Part shown: in pieces, positions 16,301 through 23,011 of the stretch
Layout of the letters: every line of letters starts with the position of its first letter
Position numbering within the stretch: the stretch's first letter is position 1
IMG/VR virus record: IMGVR_UViG_3300046532_001357
Span: 1-23,207 of that record
Length of the DNA stretch: 23,207 nt
DNA from: a virus
Reading direction: 5' to 3' (one strand)
Made by a program: the position numbers and the translations under genes
Notes under the pieces: model-generated
Database searches by the model: none
The model's input: the letters and a program-made list of their open reading frames with translations, nothing else
What the model was told of the DNA's origin: nothing

Positions 16301-16327
16301 AAGAGGGACGTTCATCGTCCCTTTTTT
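16301..16327 (+). terminator. Rho-independent terminator
   Basis: GGGACG at 16305-16310 pairs with CGTCCC at 16316-16321 around the loop TTCAT, and the stem is followed by TTTTTT. Flanking A and T bases extend the stem. It lies 18 bases after the 82-aa gene and separates it from the late-type unit that carries the curli-like genes. Confidence 0.88.
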
Positions 16328-16350
16328 ACGCGTACAACTAATCAAAAAAC

Positions 16351-16357
16351 ATAAATA
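16351..16357 (+). promoter_or_regulatory. Late-type promoter (ATAAATA) of the curli-like unit
   Basis: ATAAATA at 16351-16357 follows the terminator by 23 bases. With T4 spacing the transcript starts at 16363, exactly the A of the next ATG, and no Shine-Dalgarno sequence is present. No other promoter or terminator is obvious between here and 22976, where gaps are at most eight bases, so the whole cassette may be one late transcript. Confidence 0.55.
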
Positions 16358-16362
16358 ATTGC

Positions 16363-16659
16363 ATGAATGAGATATTTGAATTGATAGGTGAAGTGGGAGC
16401 CCCAATTGCTGGAAGCATGGTGATGGGTTTCTTTATATTTACTGTTATCAAACAAATCCTTGAGGGGGTTGTTGATGATATAAAAACGTTAACAATGTTC
16501 TGTAAATCATTAGAGAACCGTGCAAGAACTATGTCTAACGAAATGATTAAGATAGACTTACTAGTTTCCTCTGCACTTGAATTGAGACCCGATATAGAAC
16601 GCATAGCACGTGCAGAAAATTTTATAGAAGACGGTAAACTCGACGTAAGAAGAGATTAA
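16363..16659 (+). CDS. Membrane/coiled-coil small protein A, 98 aa
   Basis: The product begins MNEIFELIGEVGAPIAGSMV and has one strong membrane helix (about residues 15-35, including SMVMGFFIFTVIKQIL) followed by a long helical, coiled-coil-like stretch (DDIKTLTMFCKSLENRARTM ... EMIKIDLLVSSALEL). The layout and the G-x-P-I motif before the helix are repeated in the next gene, so the two look like diverged tandem copies. The pattern of a short lumenal start, one membrane helix and a cytoplasmic coiled coil resembles small holin-like proteins (BhlA/YvrJ type). Being first in the curli-like unit, it could instead be part of that assembly. Function unproven. Confidence 0.8.
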   Translation: MNEIFELIGEVGAPIAGSMVMGFFIFTVIKQILEGVVDDIKTLTMFCKSLENRARTMSNEMIKIDLLVSSALELRPDIERIARAENFIEDGKLDVRRD

Positions 16660-16660
16660 T

Positions 16661-16972
16661 ATGGAAAAGATTGACGTTGTAGTAAATACAGACCCTACAT
16701 TAGTAACTATACTTAATGACTATGGATTCCCAATCGTTATGATGGTTGGACTAGGATATTTCATCTATTATATTTGGTGGTTTGTAGGCAATAAGCTAGA
16801 ACCCGAAATAGAAAAACAACACTTTGCACTAATCAAAGTGATTGACCAAATCAGAATGTTAGACCAAGATTTAATACGTTTACAGCAGAAGGTGGACGTA
16901 GTTCTAGAGTATAAAGAGAATAGTAAAAAGCGAGAGGCAAACAATGCAAAAGATAGCAGCGATAATAATTAG
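16661..16972 (+). CDS. Membrane/coiled-coil small protein B, 103 aa
   Basis: It starts two bases after the previous stop. NDYGFPIVMMVGLGYFIYYI contains G-x-P-I and a membrane helix (about residues 23-44), then a heptad-like helix (EKQHFALIKVIDQIRMLDQD ... RLQQKVDVVLEY) and a polar tail (KKREANNAKDSSDNN). Compare G-A-P-I-A-G-S-M-V-M-G-F-F-I-F in protein A with G-F-P-I-V-M-M-V-G-L-G-Y-F-I-Y here. The last 29 bases overlap the csgF gene. It may be holin-like or a membrane partner of the export system. Confidence 0.8.
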   Translation: MEKIDVVVNTDPTLVTILNDYGFPIVMMVGLGYFIYYIWWFVGNKLEPEIEKQHFALIKVIDQIRMLDQDLIRLQQKVDVVLEYKENSKKREANNAKDSSDNN

Positions 16973-17405
16973 TTTAGTGTTTGCACTAGGTGTAAGTGCA
17001 GACGAAATTGTACATAAATTTAAGAGTCCTTCCTTTAATGGTATAGGAATCTCAGCACATTATCTCACGATTGAGAACCAAGAGAAGTCAAGACGTGACA
17101 AGATAAAGCAAGACCTTGAAGATGCAATTGCCAAGGCAGATAGAGAAGCACAGAACACAACGCTTGCAAAATTTTTAAGAAACGTAGAGAGTAGAATTTA
17201 CGCTCAGTTAGCAAAACAGTTAGTAGAAAATATGTTCTCTAACGGAACGGCTGCAGCTTACGGAACATTTGTAATGGAAGGAAACACAGTCACGTATGAA
17301 AGAATGACTGGAGAGGATGGAGTTGACTTTATCCGTTTAACCATTGTGACTGAAGATGGAACAACAACAGTATTAGATATTCCCGTAGGAACAGGAAGCT
17401 TTTAA
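16944..17405 (+). CDS. csgF: Curli assembly factor CsgF-like protein
   Basis: The 153-aa product has a signal peptide (MQKIAAIIISLVFALGVSA, cleavage probably after A19). The mature N terminus, DEIVHKFKSPSFNGIGISAH, matches CsgF in the F-x-x-P-x-F-x-G segment that inserts into the CsgG pore in E. coli (FRNPNFGG). A helical region with DNFTQ-type residues is replaced by KIKQDLEDAIAKADREA, and the C-terminal beta part (VTYERMTGEDGVDFIRLTIV ... TTVLDIPVG) fits the family. In curli systems CsgF sits at the outer-membrane secretion channel and attaches fibre nucleation to the surface. GAGAGG lies at 16932-16937. It is followed three bases later by csgG, the expected partner. Confidence 0.88.
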   Translation: MQKIAAIIISLVFALGVSADEIVHKFKSPSFNGIGISAHYLTIENQEKSRRDKIKQDLEDAIAKADREAQNTTLAKFLRNVESRIYAQLAKQLVENMFSNGTAAAYGTFVMEGNTVTYERMTGEDGVDFIRLTIVTEDGTTTVLDIPVGTGSF

Positions 17406-17408
17406 TTC

Positions 17409-18317
17409 ATGAGACTTTTTGGATTAGTAGGATTATTAATCTTGCTCACAAGCGGTTGTGCTAGTATTCCTAGCATGACAGACTCATGTGAATCTCTTGT
17501 TATGTCAAAGATTGGTGAGTGTGTTGAGAAGGCAGAGGTGGTAAATATACCTACCTATAAAGAACTTGCTGAATTACCCCCAGCAGACACAATGCCAGTG
17601 GTTGCAGTATACGCTTTCATGGATAAGACAGGACAACGTAAGAGTAAAGATGGAATTGCATCTTTCTCCACTGCAGTGACACAAGGTGCCGAATCATTTT
17701 TGATTGATGCACTTAAGACTGCAGCGAAGGGTAAATGGTTTAGAGTAGTAGAGAGAACAAGTTTGGATGCACTCGTAAGAGAGAGACAAATCATTCGTTC
17801 TACTAGAGAAGATTTTGCAAATCAGAAAGGTAATGAAGATGCCCCAACAGGTATTCAACCCTTGCTGTTTGCTGGAATCCTACTGGAAGGTGGGATTATT
17901 GGTTATGATGCTAACATTGAAAGTGGTGGAAGAGGCGCAAGATATCTAGGTATCGGTTCAAGTGTTTCCTACCGTAGAGATGTAGTCACCGTATCGTTGA
18001 GAGGAATATCAACTTTAACTGGTGAAATTTTACTAAATGTACAGACTCAGAAAACGATTCTTAGTACAGGCGGTGGTTATGATGTATTCCGCTTCGTTGA
18101 TATGGATACGAAGTTGGTGGAAATGGAAGATGGTAAAGCAGAGAACGAGGGTATTACGAAAGGAACACGTTCTGCAATTGAGCTTGCCGTTTTAGAACTA
18201 ATATACCAAGGACACGATAGAGGTTTTTGGGTAATTAAAGAAGGACATCGTCACCCCCATGGTCAACATGGAAGGAACGAATTACATCTTACAGAGGAAA
18301 AACTAAATGAAGAATAA
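17409..18317 (+). CDS. csgG: Curli secretion channel lipoprotein CsgG-like
   Basis: The 302-aa product starts with a lipoprotein signal peptide and lipobox LTSGC (C17). The CsgG domain is clear: VVAVYAFMDKTGQ, SFSTAVTQGAESFLIDALK, WFRVVERTSLDALVRERQII, then GARYLGIGSSVSYRRD, LTGEILLNVQTQKTILS, and FRFVD near the end, finishing HDRGFWVIK as in E. coli (DRGLW). CsgG forms the nonameric outer-membrane pore that exports curlin subunits. At the pore eyelet F86 keeps the E. coli F56 position, while N55 is S85 and Y51 aligns with D81. About 20 extra residues, histidine-rich (GHRHPHGQHG), follow the usual C terminus. Its stop overlaps the curlin-like gene by 11 bases. Confidence 0.93.
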   Translation: MRLFGLVGLLILLTSGCASIPSMTDSCESLVMSKIGECVEKAEVVNIPTYKELAELPPADTMPVVAVYAFMDKTGQRKSKDGIASFSTAVTQGAESFLIDALKTAAKGKWFRVVERTSLDALVRERQIIRSTREDFANQKGNEDAPTGIQPLLFAGILLEGGIIGYDANIESGGRGARYLGIGSSVSYRRDVVTVSLRGISTLTGEILLNVQTQKTILSTGGGYDVFRFVDMDTKLVEMEDGKAENEGITKGTRSAIELAVLELIYQGHDRGFWVIKEGHRHPHGQHGRNELHLTEEKLNEE

Positions 18318-19035
18318 ACTATTACTCATTATGTTAACATTAGGATTATCGACTACTGCATTTGCAGGAGCTGATGATAACGAAATTTGGTTACAGCAGA
18401 GTGGTACTGCACTAGTATTGAATTTCACACAGAAAGGTTATGGCAACAAAGTTGGCGGAGATGATTTCTCAGGCACTTCAATTGACATGGTTTTAACTGG
18501 TGCAAACAATACTTTGACGTTACTACAATATGGTGACACCAACAAACTGTACGGCCCTTTCCTTGCAGATACTTCAACAGTAAACTTAACGTTCACTGGT
18601 GATAGTAACTCGATGGATTGGAACGTAGGTTATGCTGGTTCAGCTGATAATATCAACATGTTAGGAGTCGTTACAGGTTCATCTAACACATTTGATATCG
18701 ACGTTGGTTACGAGGCATCTGCTGAATACTTAAACTGGGACTTAGTAACAACTGGTTCAAGTAACGTATTCACAACCAAAATTGATTCAGATAACGCTGT
18801 TTGGAACTGGACTGTTACAGGTTCAACAAACGACATCAACACTCAACAATCGGATGCAACAGATAACAAAATCACAGCAGTCTTAACTGGTTCTGCAAAT
18901 GATATTGACATCATTCAGAAGAGTGGTTCAGATACAGGTTGCCCAAGTGGTCAATCTTGTAGTGGTATTATCGACGTATCTTTCGTGACTTCTAATGCAA
19001 ATATTGACATCATTCAAAAAGACGATAACGATTAA
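18307..19035 (+). CDS. Curlin-like repeat protein 1 (candidate export substrate)
   Basis: The 242-aa product has a signal peptide ending AFA (cleavage after residue 20). The mature part is built of imperfect repeats of mostly 22-34 residues marked by TG-x-x-N (T64, T97, T123, T149, T171, T194, and TSNAN at 228). Two stretches match the curlin repeat Q-x-G-x-x-N: QKGYGN at 42-47 and QYGDTN at 74-79. Amide and glycine content, alternating hydrophobics (MVLTGANN, AVLTGSAN) and adjacency to csgG point to a beta-solenoid amyloid subunit. It is larger than E. coli CsgA (151 aa) and acidic. Two cysteines near 212 and 218 are unusual for curlins. AGAGGA lies eight bases before the start. Confidence 0.8.
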   Translation: MKNKLLLIMLTLGLSTTAFAGADDNEIWLQQSGTALVLNFTQKGYGNKVGGDDFSGTSIDMVLTGANNTLTLLQYGDTNKLYGPFLADTSTVNLTFTGDSNSMDWNVGYAGSADNINMLGVVTGSSNTFDIDVGYEASAEYLNWDLVTTGSSNVFTTKIDSDNAVWNWTVTGSTNDINTQQSDATDNKITAVLTGSANDIDIIQKSGSDTGCPSGQSCSGIIDVSFVTSNANIDIIQKDDND

Positions 19036-20134
19036 TTTTCTTCTTATCGGTTCATTAGCACTTGGTGCTGAACCGATAGGACAGATTATAGAACAGAAGG
19101 GATACGCTGGTTTACAGAGAGACGGTTCACAAACTATCTTATCTGCATCCGAGTTACCCGATGTGCTGATGTATGATACAGCACAGACTCAGAATGGGAG
19201 AATGAAAATCCAGTTCCAAGGAACTGAACAACTGGATTTGACAGAACACTCTAAGGTTTGGATAGACGAGGTTTACTATGACCCCGACCCATCCAAGTCC
19301 AAAATGGCCATCCGAATGGCACAAGGCACCGCCCGATTTGCTTCGGGTTTTGGTGGAAAGATTAAGAAAGCTAACATAAATATAACTACACCGACTGCAC
19401 AGATAACGGTTAACGGCACCGACTTCACAACTTCTATCGATGAGATTGGAAGGTCACTTGTGATTCTGCTACCCGATAAATGGGGAGCTCCATCGGGAAG
19501 TATCTTGGTTAGTAATGCAGGCGGACAAGTGTTATTGGATGAAGCTTATCAAGCAACGATGGTTTCAACCTATGATGATTCACCAACTAAACCAGTGGTG
19601 GTCAATGGGATAACACCTAACTTGATTGACAATTTATTCATTGTCAGTCCACCCGAAGAGGTGAATGAACAGGTTGCAGAAGAACAGAGTAAGAGTGAGA
19701 ACGATTCGAGTAACGTTCTTGACGTGGACTTCCTAGAGTTCAATGACCTAGAAGAGGATTACTTTGAAGACGATGAGTTAGAATACACAGAGCTCGACAG
19801 AGATTTATTAGATGTCGATTTCTTACAAGATTTACTAGACGTTGTTTTAGATATTGACCGTAAGGTTGGTCTCGATAGACAACAGTCTCAAGCATTCGGG
19901 GTTGTCCGTATTGACGGAACACTCCCAGGCTTTGACAAAGACACACAATATTCAACTATTGTAGATAAGGGTCTTGGTCAAATATGGTTCTACAGGGAAG
20001 TTAATGGAATTATATCTATTAAGATTCCAATGTTTGCACAAGCAAGTATTAGAACCATAACAGACGAAAAAGAGTCATCAATACAGGTGGGTGATGGTTC
20101 GTCTCTAAATATAACCATCACACAAACAAACTAG
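18995..20134 (+). CDS. Secreted FecR-domain protein
   Basis: The 379-aa product overlaps the curlin-like gene by 41 bases. Residues 1-25 form a signal peptide (INFLLIGSLALGA, cleavage near A25). Residues about 28-150 match a FecR domain: GQIIEQKGYAGLQRDG, then MKIQFQGTEQLDLTEHSKVW, MAQGTARFASG and the typical TPTAQITVNGTDF. The middle (about 235-290) is strongly acidic (EEDYFEDDELEYTELDRD). The C-terminal 90 residues contain small beta segments ending NITITQTN, which recall the curlin-like proteins. Exported FecR-domain proteins without the cytoplasmic helix are often found beside CHASE2 cyclases in bacteria, as here; it could be the periplasmic or surface ligand of the sensor. No Shine-Dalgarno is seen, so coupling to the upstream gene is likely. 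Confidence 0.83.
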   Translation: MQILTSFKKTITINFLLIGSLALGAEPIGQIIEQKGYAGLQRDGSQTILSASELPDVLMYDTAQTQNGRMKIQFQGTEQLDLTEHSKVWIDEVYYDPDPSKSKMAIRMAQGTARFASGFGGKIKKANINITTPTAQITVNGTDFTTSIDEIGRSLVILLPDKWGAPSGSILVSNAGGQVLLDEAYQATMVSTYDDSPTKPVVVNGITPNLIDNLFIVSPPEEVNEQVAEEQSKSENDSSNVLDVDFLEFNDLEEDYFEDDELEYTELDRDLLDVDFLQDLLDVVLDIDRKVGLDRQQSQAFGVVRIDGTLPGFDKDTQYSTIVDKGLGQIWFYREVNGIISIKIPMFAQASIRTITDEKESSIQVGDGSSLNITITQTN

Positions 20135-20142
20135 GAGAATAT

Positions 20143-20289
20143 ATGAATATTATAGAAAAACTTCGTTCATGGCATGAAACACAAATGTTTGGGTTTCAAA
20201 AAGCTATGAGACTTGACGACTACCACATGATGTGGTTGTGCTTCATGGAAGGAGTGGTCTTATGTTTAGTATTTCAATGGTTATTTTAA
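20143..20289 (+). CDS. 48-aa membrane peptide between fecR-like and curlin-like genes
   Basis: ATG 20143 has a strong AGGAG at 20133-20137 with a 5-base spacer, and the frame runs to TAA 20287-20289. The peptide begins MNIIEKLRSWHETQMFGFQK (amphipathic, basic) and ends with a hydrophobic segment (MMWLCFMEGVVLCLVFQWLF), so it is probably one membrane helix with its C terminus at or in the membrane. It fits precisely between two genes, with eight bases before and six bases after. I do not recognise it. The ribosome binding site is the best in this part of the cassette, which argues that it is expressed. Confidence 0.72.
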   Translation: MNIIEKLRSWHETQMFGFQKAMRLDDYHMMWLCFMEGVVLCLVFQWLF

Positions 20290-20295
20290 ACTAAA

Positions 20296-21099
20296 ATGAA
20301 AAGAATTTTATCATTATTAATAATGCTTCCCTTGTTAGTCATCGCAGATGATGACAACAAGGTTGATGTTAACACTACTGGGAGTCAGTCTAATGATTCC
20401 CTAGTGTTTAATCTAACACAAATAGGTTATAACAACGATACCGTCTTTACACTCGGTGGTTCTAATAACTCATTTCTAATTAAACAAGAAGGAAACAACA
20501 ACGAGATTTCCTTTGTAGATTACTGGGGTTCGGGAGAAGCTTGGGGTGGAGACCTCGATGGTAATAACAATGCATTACACTTCGAACAAAATTGTACTCG
20601 TGGTTCCAGTTGTGGTAAATCTGATATAGGATTTCACATTCAAGGAAATGATAACTCAGTTCGATGGGGTCAAGGAAAGACTCTAGCAAACGCTTCAGAT
20701 GAGACATTTTCACTCGATTCGGATGAGGGTGGTAATCATAAACTAAACCTAGACATTCACGGTAATAATAATTCAGTCGCAGGGTTTCAAAGAAATGGTG
20801 CTCAAAATCAATACTCGGGTCACACTGCAACCTTATACATCTATGCAAATGATAATTCACTTTGGGTGAAACAAGAGAATGATGGTGCAAAGACTTTAAA
20901 CTACACTAGTAGAACAGATGATAATACAGGACATATAGTTCAAATGGGTAGTGGGATTCACACTTCAACCATAAATCTCACTGGTACATACCCATCAACT
21001 TTGAATTTATTGCAAAACTCAAGTACAAATCAATCGTATACACTCACACAAAACTGCGTTACAGTAGGTGGATGTAGTGTTACAATAACTCAAGAGTAA
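20296..21099 (+). CDS. Curlin-like repeat protein 2 (candidate subunit or nucleator)
   Basis: The 267-aa product has a signal peptide (MKRILSLLIMLPLLVIA, cleavage near A17). It is closer to canonical curlin than protein 1: S59-x4-Q64-x-G66-x-x-N69 and Q42-x-G44-x-x-N47 fit the curlin repeat, with further G-x-N-N/D-N-S-type turns at 66, 89, 117 and 156 and ANDNS at 184. The protein is rich in N, G and S. Four cysteines occur in two C-x5-C pairs (C100/C106 and C254/C260), which could form disulfides in the periplasm. It may be the major subunit or the CsgB-like nucleator, with protein 1 in the other role. The stop shares a base with the next ATG (TAATG). Confidence 0.82.
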   Translation: MKRILSLLIMLPLLVIADDDNKVDVNTTGSQSNDSLVFNLTQIGYNNDTVFTLGGSNNSFLIKQEGNNNEISFVDYWGSGEAWGGDLDGNNNALHFEQNCTRGSSCGKSDIGFHIQGNDNSVRWGQGKTLANASDETFSLDSDEGGNHKLNLDIHGNNNSVAGFQRNGAQNQYSGHTATLYIYANDNSLWVKQENDGAKTLNYTSRTDDNTGHIVQMGSGIHTSTINLTGTYPSTLNLLQNSSTNQSYTLTQNCVTVGGCSVTITQE

Positions 21100-22976
21100 T
21101 GTACTCTTGGAAAGCGTGTCTTGTTACGATACTTGCCCTCTTTGCATTAAAGGTTACTAATCCTTATTTCATAGAGAACATATCTTGGTCATGGTTTGAT
21201 TACCTACACCAAACAAAAGGAGAATTTTATGTTGACGACATCGTTCTTGTCGATATCGACGAGAAATCTCTTGAAACTTTTGGACAGTATCCTATACGCC
21301 GTGGGATTTATCGTGACTTGCTTCTTGATACCCATCACAGCAATACTCATATCTTTGGTATGTTATTCTCAAAACCCGATAGAGACCCCACACAAGACGC
21401 GATATTCGCAGAGGGATTAGTCAACCGACTCACAATCCTTGGAGCTGCTCCAACATCACAAACTCAAAAAGGTTCTGCACCATTCGTAGGTAACTCAACG
21501 TTTGGGGGTGGTAATCCTAAAGATTTTCTATGGAACTTCGATGGAATTGTATCGCCCATCGCGATGCTGAAAGACAATACTTATGGGGTTGGAGTTGTGA
21601 CGGCTACTCCAGCGGTCACTGGAACACCAAATTTTGATGGAACTACGCGGTCTGTACCCCTATTGGTTACGGCAAACGATGAAGTATATCCCTCACTAAT
21701 GTTAGAAGCTTTACGAGCCTTACGCAACGAACCAAGTTATCAAACTAAAATTACTCCCGAGACTGGTGTAGAGTGGGTTCGGATGGGGAGAGACAAACCG
21801 ATAACCACCACTCCAACCAGTGATGTAATGATATCCTATTGGAACAAATTCCATAGAATTTCTGCAGTAGACTTACCCGATTCTAATTTTGAGAATAAAA
21901 TACTTGTATGGGGTTTGACTGCAGAGGGTTTGAATAATCCAGTTTCAACCCCAAGGGGAGTAATGTATCCCCATGAAGTGCAAGCGAACCTGCTTCAAAC
22001 CGTTTTGACAGGAGTTCAAATACAACAATCCTACTATCTTGAATCACTAGAGTCTGTTCTTCTTCTGTTAGTTCTGCTAATGATAGTTGCGATGGTTTAC
22101 AAGCTTCCCACAGTTCTTTCGGGGACAGGGTTTCTATTACTTGTAGTATGCCAGATTGGCGGGAGTTATTATATTTGGACTTCAGAGCTCGTTCTTTTCG
22201 ATACCTTCTTTTCATCGTTGGCCTCCTTAGTAGTTTTCGGTCATGCTTCGTTCAACAAATACTATGTGACTTTCCAAGAAAAGCAACAAATCAAGAAGCA
22301 GTTCCAAAAGTATTTATCTCCCGACATGATTGAAGAGCTCCAAAAAGACCCATCTAAATTAAGATTGGGTGGAGATAGAAAGGAACTTTCATTCCTCTTC
22401 GCAGACATCGTAGGGTTCACTCCAATCTCAGAAGCTTACATGAAGAATGACGACCCCGAGGGATTAGTTCTGCTCATTAATAGATTCCTAGATGGTATGA
22501 CTAAGATAGTAATTGCTAATGGTGGCACGGTTGACAAGTACATGGGCGACTGTTTGATGGCATTTTGGAATGCTCCTTTGGAATGTCCGAACCATGCTGA
22601 AATGGCAATCAAGACTGCGATGGAAATAGAGATACTTACAGAACAGATGAACAAAGATATCGTAGAAGAGGGGTTAGACTTACCACCAGTAGTCATAGGT
22701 ACTGGAGTTAACACAGGCCCATGTATCGTAGGTAACATGGGTTCAGAACTTAGGTTCGATTACAGTGTAGTAGGTGATGCAGTTAACCTTGCAGCCAGAC
22801 TAGAAGTACAGACACGAACTTACGACACACCAATACTATTCTCAGAGTTTACTAAAGACCAAATTGATATTGACTGGAAGTACATCGATGAAATCAAAGT
22901 TAAAGGTAAAGAGATACCAGTTAAAATCTATGCACCATTATTCGATGGTAAAACAAGATTGCTAAAAAAGACTTGA
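21099..22976 (+). CDS. CHASE2-domain membrane adenylate cyclase (class III)
   Basis: The 625-aa product has an N-terminal membrane helix (about 4-24), a periplasmic CHASE2 domain (about 25-290, with DIVLVDIDEKSLETFGQYPI and RGIYRDLL), three membrane helices between about 318 and 385, a linker (QKYLSPDMIEELQ), and a class III cyclase domain (about 430-610). Catalytic residues appear complete: metal-binding D436 (LFADIVGFT) and D484 (YMGDCLMAFWN), K480 and D554 (FDYSVVGD) as the pair that selects ATP over GTP, and N563/R567 (VNLAAR) for the transition state. It should make cAMP in the cytoplasm in response to an envelope signal. The start shares a base with the curlin-like stop. Confidence 0.92.
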   Translation: MYSWKACLVTILALFALKVTNPYFIENISWSWFDYLHQTKGEFYVDDIVLVDIDEKSLETFGQYPIRRGIYRDLLLDTHHSNTHIFGMLFSKPDRDPTQDAIFAEGLVNRLTILGAAPTSQTQKGSAPFVGNSTFGGGNPKDFLWNFDGIVSPIAMLKDNTYGVGVVTATPAVTGTPNFDGTTRSVPLLVTANDEVYPSLMLEALRALRNEPSYQTKITPETGVEWVRMGRDKPITTTPTSDVMISYWNKFHRISAVDLPDSNFENKILVWGLTAEGLNNPVSTPRGVMYPHEVQANLLQTVLTGVQIQQSYYLESLESVLLLLVLLMIVAMVYKLPTVLSGTGFLLLVVCQIGGSYYIWTSELVLFDTFFSSLASLVVFGHASFNKYYVTFQEKQQIKKQFQKYLSPDMIEELQKDPSKLRLGGDRKELSFLFADIVGFTPISEAYMKNDDPEGLVLLINRFLDGMTKIVIANGGTVDKYMGDCLMAFWNAPLECPNHAEMAIKTAMEIEILTEQMNKDIVEEGLDLPPVVIGTGVNTGPCIVGNMGSELRFDYSVVGDAVNLAARLEVQTRTYDTPILFSEFTKDQIDIDWKYIDEIKVKGKEIPVKIYAPLFDGKTRLLKKT

Positions 22977-23003: not shown

Positions 23004-23011
23004 TATAAATA
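23004..23011 (+). promoter_or_regulatory. Perfect T4-type late promoter TATAAATA
   Basis: TATAAATA at 23004-23011 is identical to the T4 late consensus. With T4 spacing the transcript begins near 23017 and gives a 53-base leader with AAGGAG before the Hsp20 ATG at 23070. It lies 28 bases after the cyclase stop. No convincing terminator separates the two units. Confidence 0.75.

Follow-up and report, generated by a model that had tools for sequence, protein, structure and literature searches.

Operons encoding CsgF and CsgG were reported in pelagimyophages in 2020 (PMC7029224) and in the OM43 phage Melnitz in 2022 (PMC9004378), and the complete complement, with curlin genes, FecR, and adenylate cyclase, was described in 2022 in podo- and myo-pelagiphages, together with metatranscriptome reads for these type VIII secretion system (T8SS) genes (PMC9599517). 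Here, we analyzed a stretch of 23,207 nucleotides (nt) of T4-like marine phage DNA (IMG/VR record IMGVR_UViG_3300046532_001357, hereafter the window), which carries a cassette of nine plus-strand genes between regA and hsp20, in the order mem1, mem2, csgF, csgG, CUR1, fecR, a gene for a 48-amino-acid (aa) membrane peptide, CUR2, and a gene for a CHASE2 class III cyclase. The cassette is a further member of a system known from earlier publications on viruses of SAR11-type bacteria. The pelagiphage T8SS module (PMC9599517; HTVC008M, KC465899; Melnitz, MZ577097) runs from one or more small genes through CsgF, CsgG, CsgA/B, FecR, and a second CsgA/B to adenylate cyclase, in the same kind of phage. 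The window differs from HTVC008M and Melnitz in that its module follows regA and precedes hsp20, whereas theirs follow ssb-region genes; furthermore, its small genes give no kinase match, and the gene for the 48-aa peptide is extra. The complete combination, singled out in an earlier note on this DNA, is thus covered by PMC9599517, and most of it is annotated in the GenBank records of HTVC008M and Melnitz. Our analysis adds to the published account the obligate genes mem1 and mem2, the tail of FecR, the hypervariability of CUR2, an intact cyclase without a known receiver, and a conserved promoter.

Cellular systems resemble the cassette in part. Curli operons of alphaproteobacteria (Sphingomonas, Azospirillum, Hyphomonadaceae, and others; L097-L163 and L194-L201) share CsgF-CsgG and several curlin genes with it, but no adjacent mem1/mem2, FecR, or cyclase gene was found in them, with one exception (L090). 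The Burkholderia BiofilmReg operon, which is needed for biofilm, likewise places an exported FecR-domain protein beside a CHASE2 sensor; unlike the cassette, it has a histidine kinase and a response regulator as output, no curli genes, and a LysM domain on its FecR protein (PMC5192318).

We reasoned that the cassette is probably a type VIII (curli) export system that the phage expresses late and that puts predicted curlin-type fibers on infected cells. At the level of sequence, its gene content, its conservation as a unit, the intact active site of the cyclase, and the homology to curlins are established. All nine open reading frames (ORFs) listed in the earlier note between RegA and Hsp20 are present, confirming the observation of the cassette, and Pfam searches with the window proteins upheld the names CsgF, CsgG, FecR, CHASE2, and cyclase. 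CsgF (positions 16944..17405) matches its Pfam family at 1.5e-12, and a CsgF profile built from three sequences left the solved CsgF structure unmatched. CsgG, the outer-membrane pore lipoprotein (17409..18317), matches Pfam at 5.4e-47 and the solved Escherichia coli CsgG at 3.6e-45. With this pore, the CsgF accessory protein, and one or more curlin-repeat substrates, three parts of a type VIII secretion system are present, the substrates being recognized through homologues and profiles rather than through the window proteins alone.

The substrate candidates are CUR1 (18307..19035), an exported, conserved, curlin-like beta-solenoid protein, and CUR2 (20296..21099), a hypervariable curlin-like protein. 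The window CUR2 scored 0.015 against the curlin Pfam family, under the Pfam cut-off, and CUR1 alone gave no curlin Pfam match. The curlin-like pair of the earlier note, weak on these proteins, was borne out by their homologues, since 28/38 CUR2 homologues (best, 5.2e-8) and 17/40 CUR1 homologues (best, 8.6e-6) match Curlin_rpt. The CUR2 profile also matched solved curlins (8c50 at 1.6e-10; the major curlin subunit 8enq at 0.0011). The AlphaFold2 (AF2) model of CUR1 consists of regular beta strands (pLDDT, 82; pTM, 0.79); the three viral proteins that it matches best all bear the name "Curlin associated." CUR2 is the least conserved gene of the module, with a median identity of 0.43 versus 0.7-0.8 for FecR, and the HTVC008M copy contains a PA14 domain; both traits are as expected for a putative outward-facing, adhesin-like subunit. 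The same traits, together with the folded solenoid that AF2 gave for CUR1, could also mean that the CUR proteins serve, after export, as soluble or tip-type adhesins with beta-solenoid folds that do not polymerize into amyloid. This alternative deserves some weight but is on the unlikely side, as CUR2 homologues show matches to both the curlin repeat and solved curlins. Curlin subunits are themselves solenoid-like, which we also count against it.

The exported FecR-domain protein (18995..20134; Pfam FecR, 1.7e-9) ends in a curlin-like strand (SSLNITITQTN). The motif of this tail (ITITQTN in the window) occurs in 69/70 phage copies but in 0/420 control ORFs; in a second, overlapping set, it occurs in 135/136 copies. 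In the structural model, the strand forms part of a C-terminal beta domain at fair confidence, the N terminus is a helix (residues 3-24) leading directly into beta strands, and the protein matches the PupR signaling domain (Foldseek probability, 1.0). A role as an iron-citrate anti-sigma regulator was rejected, as the module has no sigma-factor gene and the protein has no N-terminal anti-sigma domain. Between fecR and CUR2 lies the gene for the 48-aa peptide (20143..20289), which is hydrophobic in its C-terminal half by hydropathy and conserved in part of the relatives.

The last gene (21099..22976) encodes a CHASE2 class III adenylate cyclase (CHASE2, 3.8e-30; Guanylate_cyc, 5.7e-16) with about four transmembrane (TM) segments predicted by hydropathy. 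It combines the CHASE2 domain with the two metal-binding Asp residues and the Lys, Asn, and Arg of class III enzymes (D436, K480, D484, S556, N563, and R567 are all present), its nearest solved relatives are adenylate cyclases, and the catalytic set is kept in 102/105 cyclase sequences. The predicted active site is thus intact, and its Lys/Ser specificity pair presumably selects ATP as the substrate. In the cyclases of Melnitz (L002:12544-14595) and of L091:6672-8708, the set is divergent, with Asp for Ser and Ser for the transition-state Asn. As a sensing pair, FecR and the CHASE2 protein appear to parallel those of the Burkholderia biofilm operon (PMC5192318).

FecR and the cyclase might instead be an envelope-stress or infection-state signaling pair that travels with the cassette without acting on it, its product serving an unknown receiver or draining ATP. 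Four FecR-bearing curli loci without a cyclase despite room for one, and the other genes, such as an IscU-like gene, that relatives have between CUR2 and the cyclase, speak for this possibility, which we regard as rather improbable. Against it stand the curlin-like tail of FecR and the seeded scans: those started from mem1, the cyclase, and FecR returned the same module in 59/59, 79/79, and 70/70 loci with room, so that every such cyclase-seeded viral locus has curli genes, among the closest relatives that these scans retain and with distant stand-alone copies left possible.

The first two genes encode mem1 (16363..16659; 98 aa; phrog_18771, 5.2e-24), with one TM segment (residues 11-29) and a coiled coil, and its paralogue mem2 (16661..16972; 103 aa; phrog_18771, 3.5e-25). 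Their paralogy is supported by hhalign (97.9%; E, 5.9e-13); each has one TM segment by hydropathy and a conserved helix that is probably a coiled coil, and mem1 has no Pfam match. Two mem genes occur in 91/91 mem-bearing loci. As judged by comparison of the loci, this pair of phage-specific partners of predicted inner-membrane type is inherited together with the module, as a single unit that occupies several genomic positions. These genes have been published as histidine kinases. At 98 and 103 aa, neither protein has HisKA or HATPase domains, and since no kinase domain is matched by them or by 28 and 33 of their homologues, that label lacks support in this lineage.

The mem proteins also bear on the proposal of the Melnitz authors that CsgG/CsgF has taken on a new task as a pore that times lysis or serves uptake, in the manner of a pinholin or secretin, with the curlin-like genes secondary. 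Models and synteny were argued for it (PMC9004378), and mem1 and mem2, as small TM-plus-coiled-coil proteins, would suit it, mem1 giving a weak holin match (phrog_4898; E, 0.0052). We consider it quite unlikely. The proposal took csgA/B as missing, but Melnitz has curlin-family genes of its own, as do nearly all modules, in which they are under purifying selection, and CsgG is strongly similar to the solved export pore.

Conservation of the gene order, a matter the earlier note had left to be checked, was found in 91 loci as far as each contig reaches, with the 48-aa peptide variably present. A scan of viral contigs gave at least 586 CsgG relatives; FecR is joined to curli genes in every readable locus, and the CHASE2 cyclase usually is. 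In most loci, regA and two small genes precede the module; in others, regA is its immediate upstream neighbor; and in HTVC008M and Melnitz, its place is behind ssb-region genes. Because its position differs in this way, it is taken to move as a block. In comparisons with two relatives, the ratio of nonsynonymous to synonymous substitution rates (dN/dS) was 0.02-0.26 for module genes, with CUR2 at 0.19 where it could be measured and at saturation in one pair, indicating that all measured module genes are under purifying selection. A chimera of phage and bacterial DNA is already refuted, since the order is shared by 91 loci and by genomes of cultured phages, and the regA-side flank by dozens; identical junctions in dozens of independent contigs exclude the mis-assembly that the earlier note had raised.

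In several relatives, a gene for an IscU/NifU-like iron-sulfur scaffold, assigned by eye, sits between CUR2 and the cyclase (L004:6075-6557, L023, L028, L038, L039, L041, and L077), and in further relatives this slot holds other small genes. Around the window's cassette, the upstream genes encode RegA (phrog_242, 1.2e-55) and the clamp and clamp-loader proteins gp62, gp44, and gp45, and hsp20 runs into the contig edge, leaving a 46-aa stub. The clamp loader resembles those of Prochlorococcus phages and of Pelagibacter phages about equally closely. The compact spacing described in the earlier note holds for the intergenic gaps (at most 8 nt); the overlaps reach 29 and 41 nt, beyond the eight bases given there.

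The module was also found in contigs binned as Saprospirales, Sphingobacteriales, Rhodobacteraceae, and Pelagibacter (L084-L089 and L091-L095; genomes G002, G298, and G335). Since it is the phage module that they carry, these bins hold either proviruses or contigs of phage origin, two of which measure 121 and 142 kb. In the Pelagibacter family, 3/3 CsgG matches lie beside phage-type curli genes, and 2/3 have mem genes. One csgF/csgG contig binned as Pirellulales (L095:780-5214) lacks mem1/mem2 and has Hsp20-, ClpS-, and heme oxygenase-like genes by eye. The only cellular case found was Hyphomonas sp. TMED17 (L090:8459-14482, in a 705-kb contig), in which CsgF-CsgG-curlin-FecR-CHASE2 cyclase genes stand among bacterial genes; it lacks mem genes, its FecR lacks the curlin-like tail, and its CsgG falls inside the phage clade on a long branch. 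A bacterial donor was considered: FecR and cyclase genes accompany csg genes in this single chromosome-size contig and are absent from eight further Hyphomonadaceae loci. With the L090 CsgG on such a branch, transfer may have gone in either direction.

An intrinsic-terminator-like hairpin (GGGACG..CGTCCC followed by a T run; 16304..16329, plus strand) lies directly ahead of the module, and T-tracts precede mem1 in many relatives. A T4-late-type promoter box, CATAAATA (16350..16357, plus strand; one mismatch), ends 5 nt ahead of the mem1 ATG. The late-type promoter of the earlier note was at chance level in the window alone (40 matches versus 41 expected) and was upheld by comparison of relatives: the box stands exactly at -13 from the mem1 ATG in 29/74 distinct upstream regions, with 0.2 expected. 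The conserved late-type box is often directly at the ATG and, at -13, is mostly without a Shine-Dalgarno (SD)-like sequence, which suggests that the mem1 transcript is late and possibly leaderless. An exact TATAAATA occurs at 23004-23011, 66 nt ahead of the Hsp20 ATG; a leader and an SD-like sequence come with it, a layout different from that of the module's box, which sits close to its ATG.

In the fiber-export reading, CsgG/CsgF would export CUR1 late in infection as the body of the fiber and CUR2 as a variable, outward-facing (adhesin-like) subunit, and the infected cell would thereby be coated with curlin-type fibers. The mem proteins might form the inner-membrane part, either as an anchor or as a gate replacing the absent CsgE. 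FecR, at the periplasmic side, may dock on the fiber or its precursors via its curlin-like last strand and inform the cyclase, through its CHASE2 sensor, about export or the state of the envelope. The likely benefit would be an altered surface of the infected cell, through exclusion of competitors or by keeping cells or virions nearby.

Several results weigh against this reading. CsgE was found in 0/7 phage records; its absence is not decisive, since alphaproteobacterial modules likewise lack CsgC, CsgD, and CsgE (PMC9599517). CUR1 gave no significant fold or profile match in the PDB. Cell aggregation, as suggested in the earlier note, was looked for in cultures of Melnitz, which showed no clumping (PMC9004378). 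The likeness of the FecR tail to curlins is short, with a marginal profile cross-match (E, 0.0014; domain, 0.067), so docking on the fiber can be suggested only tentatively. Finally, no cyclic nucleotide monophosphate (cNMP)-binding domain was found in 138/147 Pelagibacter-family genomes, and none, hence no phage-encoded cyclic AMP (cAMP) receptor, in the 7 phage records. The altered host cAMP signaling of the earlier note is thus left without a known receiver, and its interpretation as a whole is partly supported.

Beyond export itself, a bolder scheme can be drawn, which we rate as unlikely: FecR could be a curlin-tailed sensor whose last strand joins the fiber or captures outgoing curlin, giving the CHASE2 cyclase a direct readout of amyloid export. 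If true, it would be signaling wired to fiber assembly and brought by a virus, in recipient hosts that mostly lack curli and known cAMP receptors. The mem1/mem2 pair, the FecR tail, the variability of CUR2, and the receiver-less cyclase are handles that make the competing ideas testable. By adding fiber export and an envelope-to-cyclase sensor to streamlined ocean bacteria that are very common, a virus would alter how infected cells make contact with other cells and with other phages.

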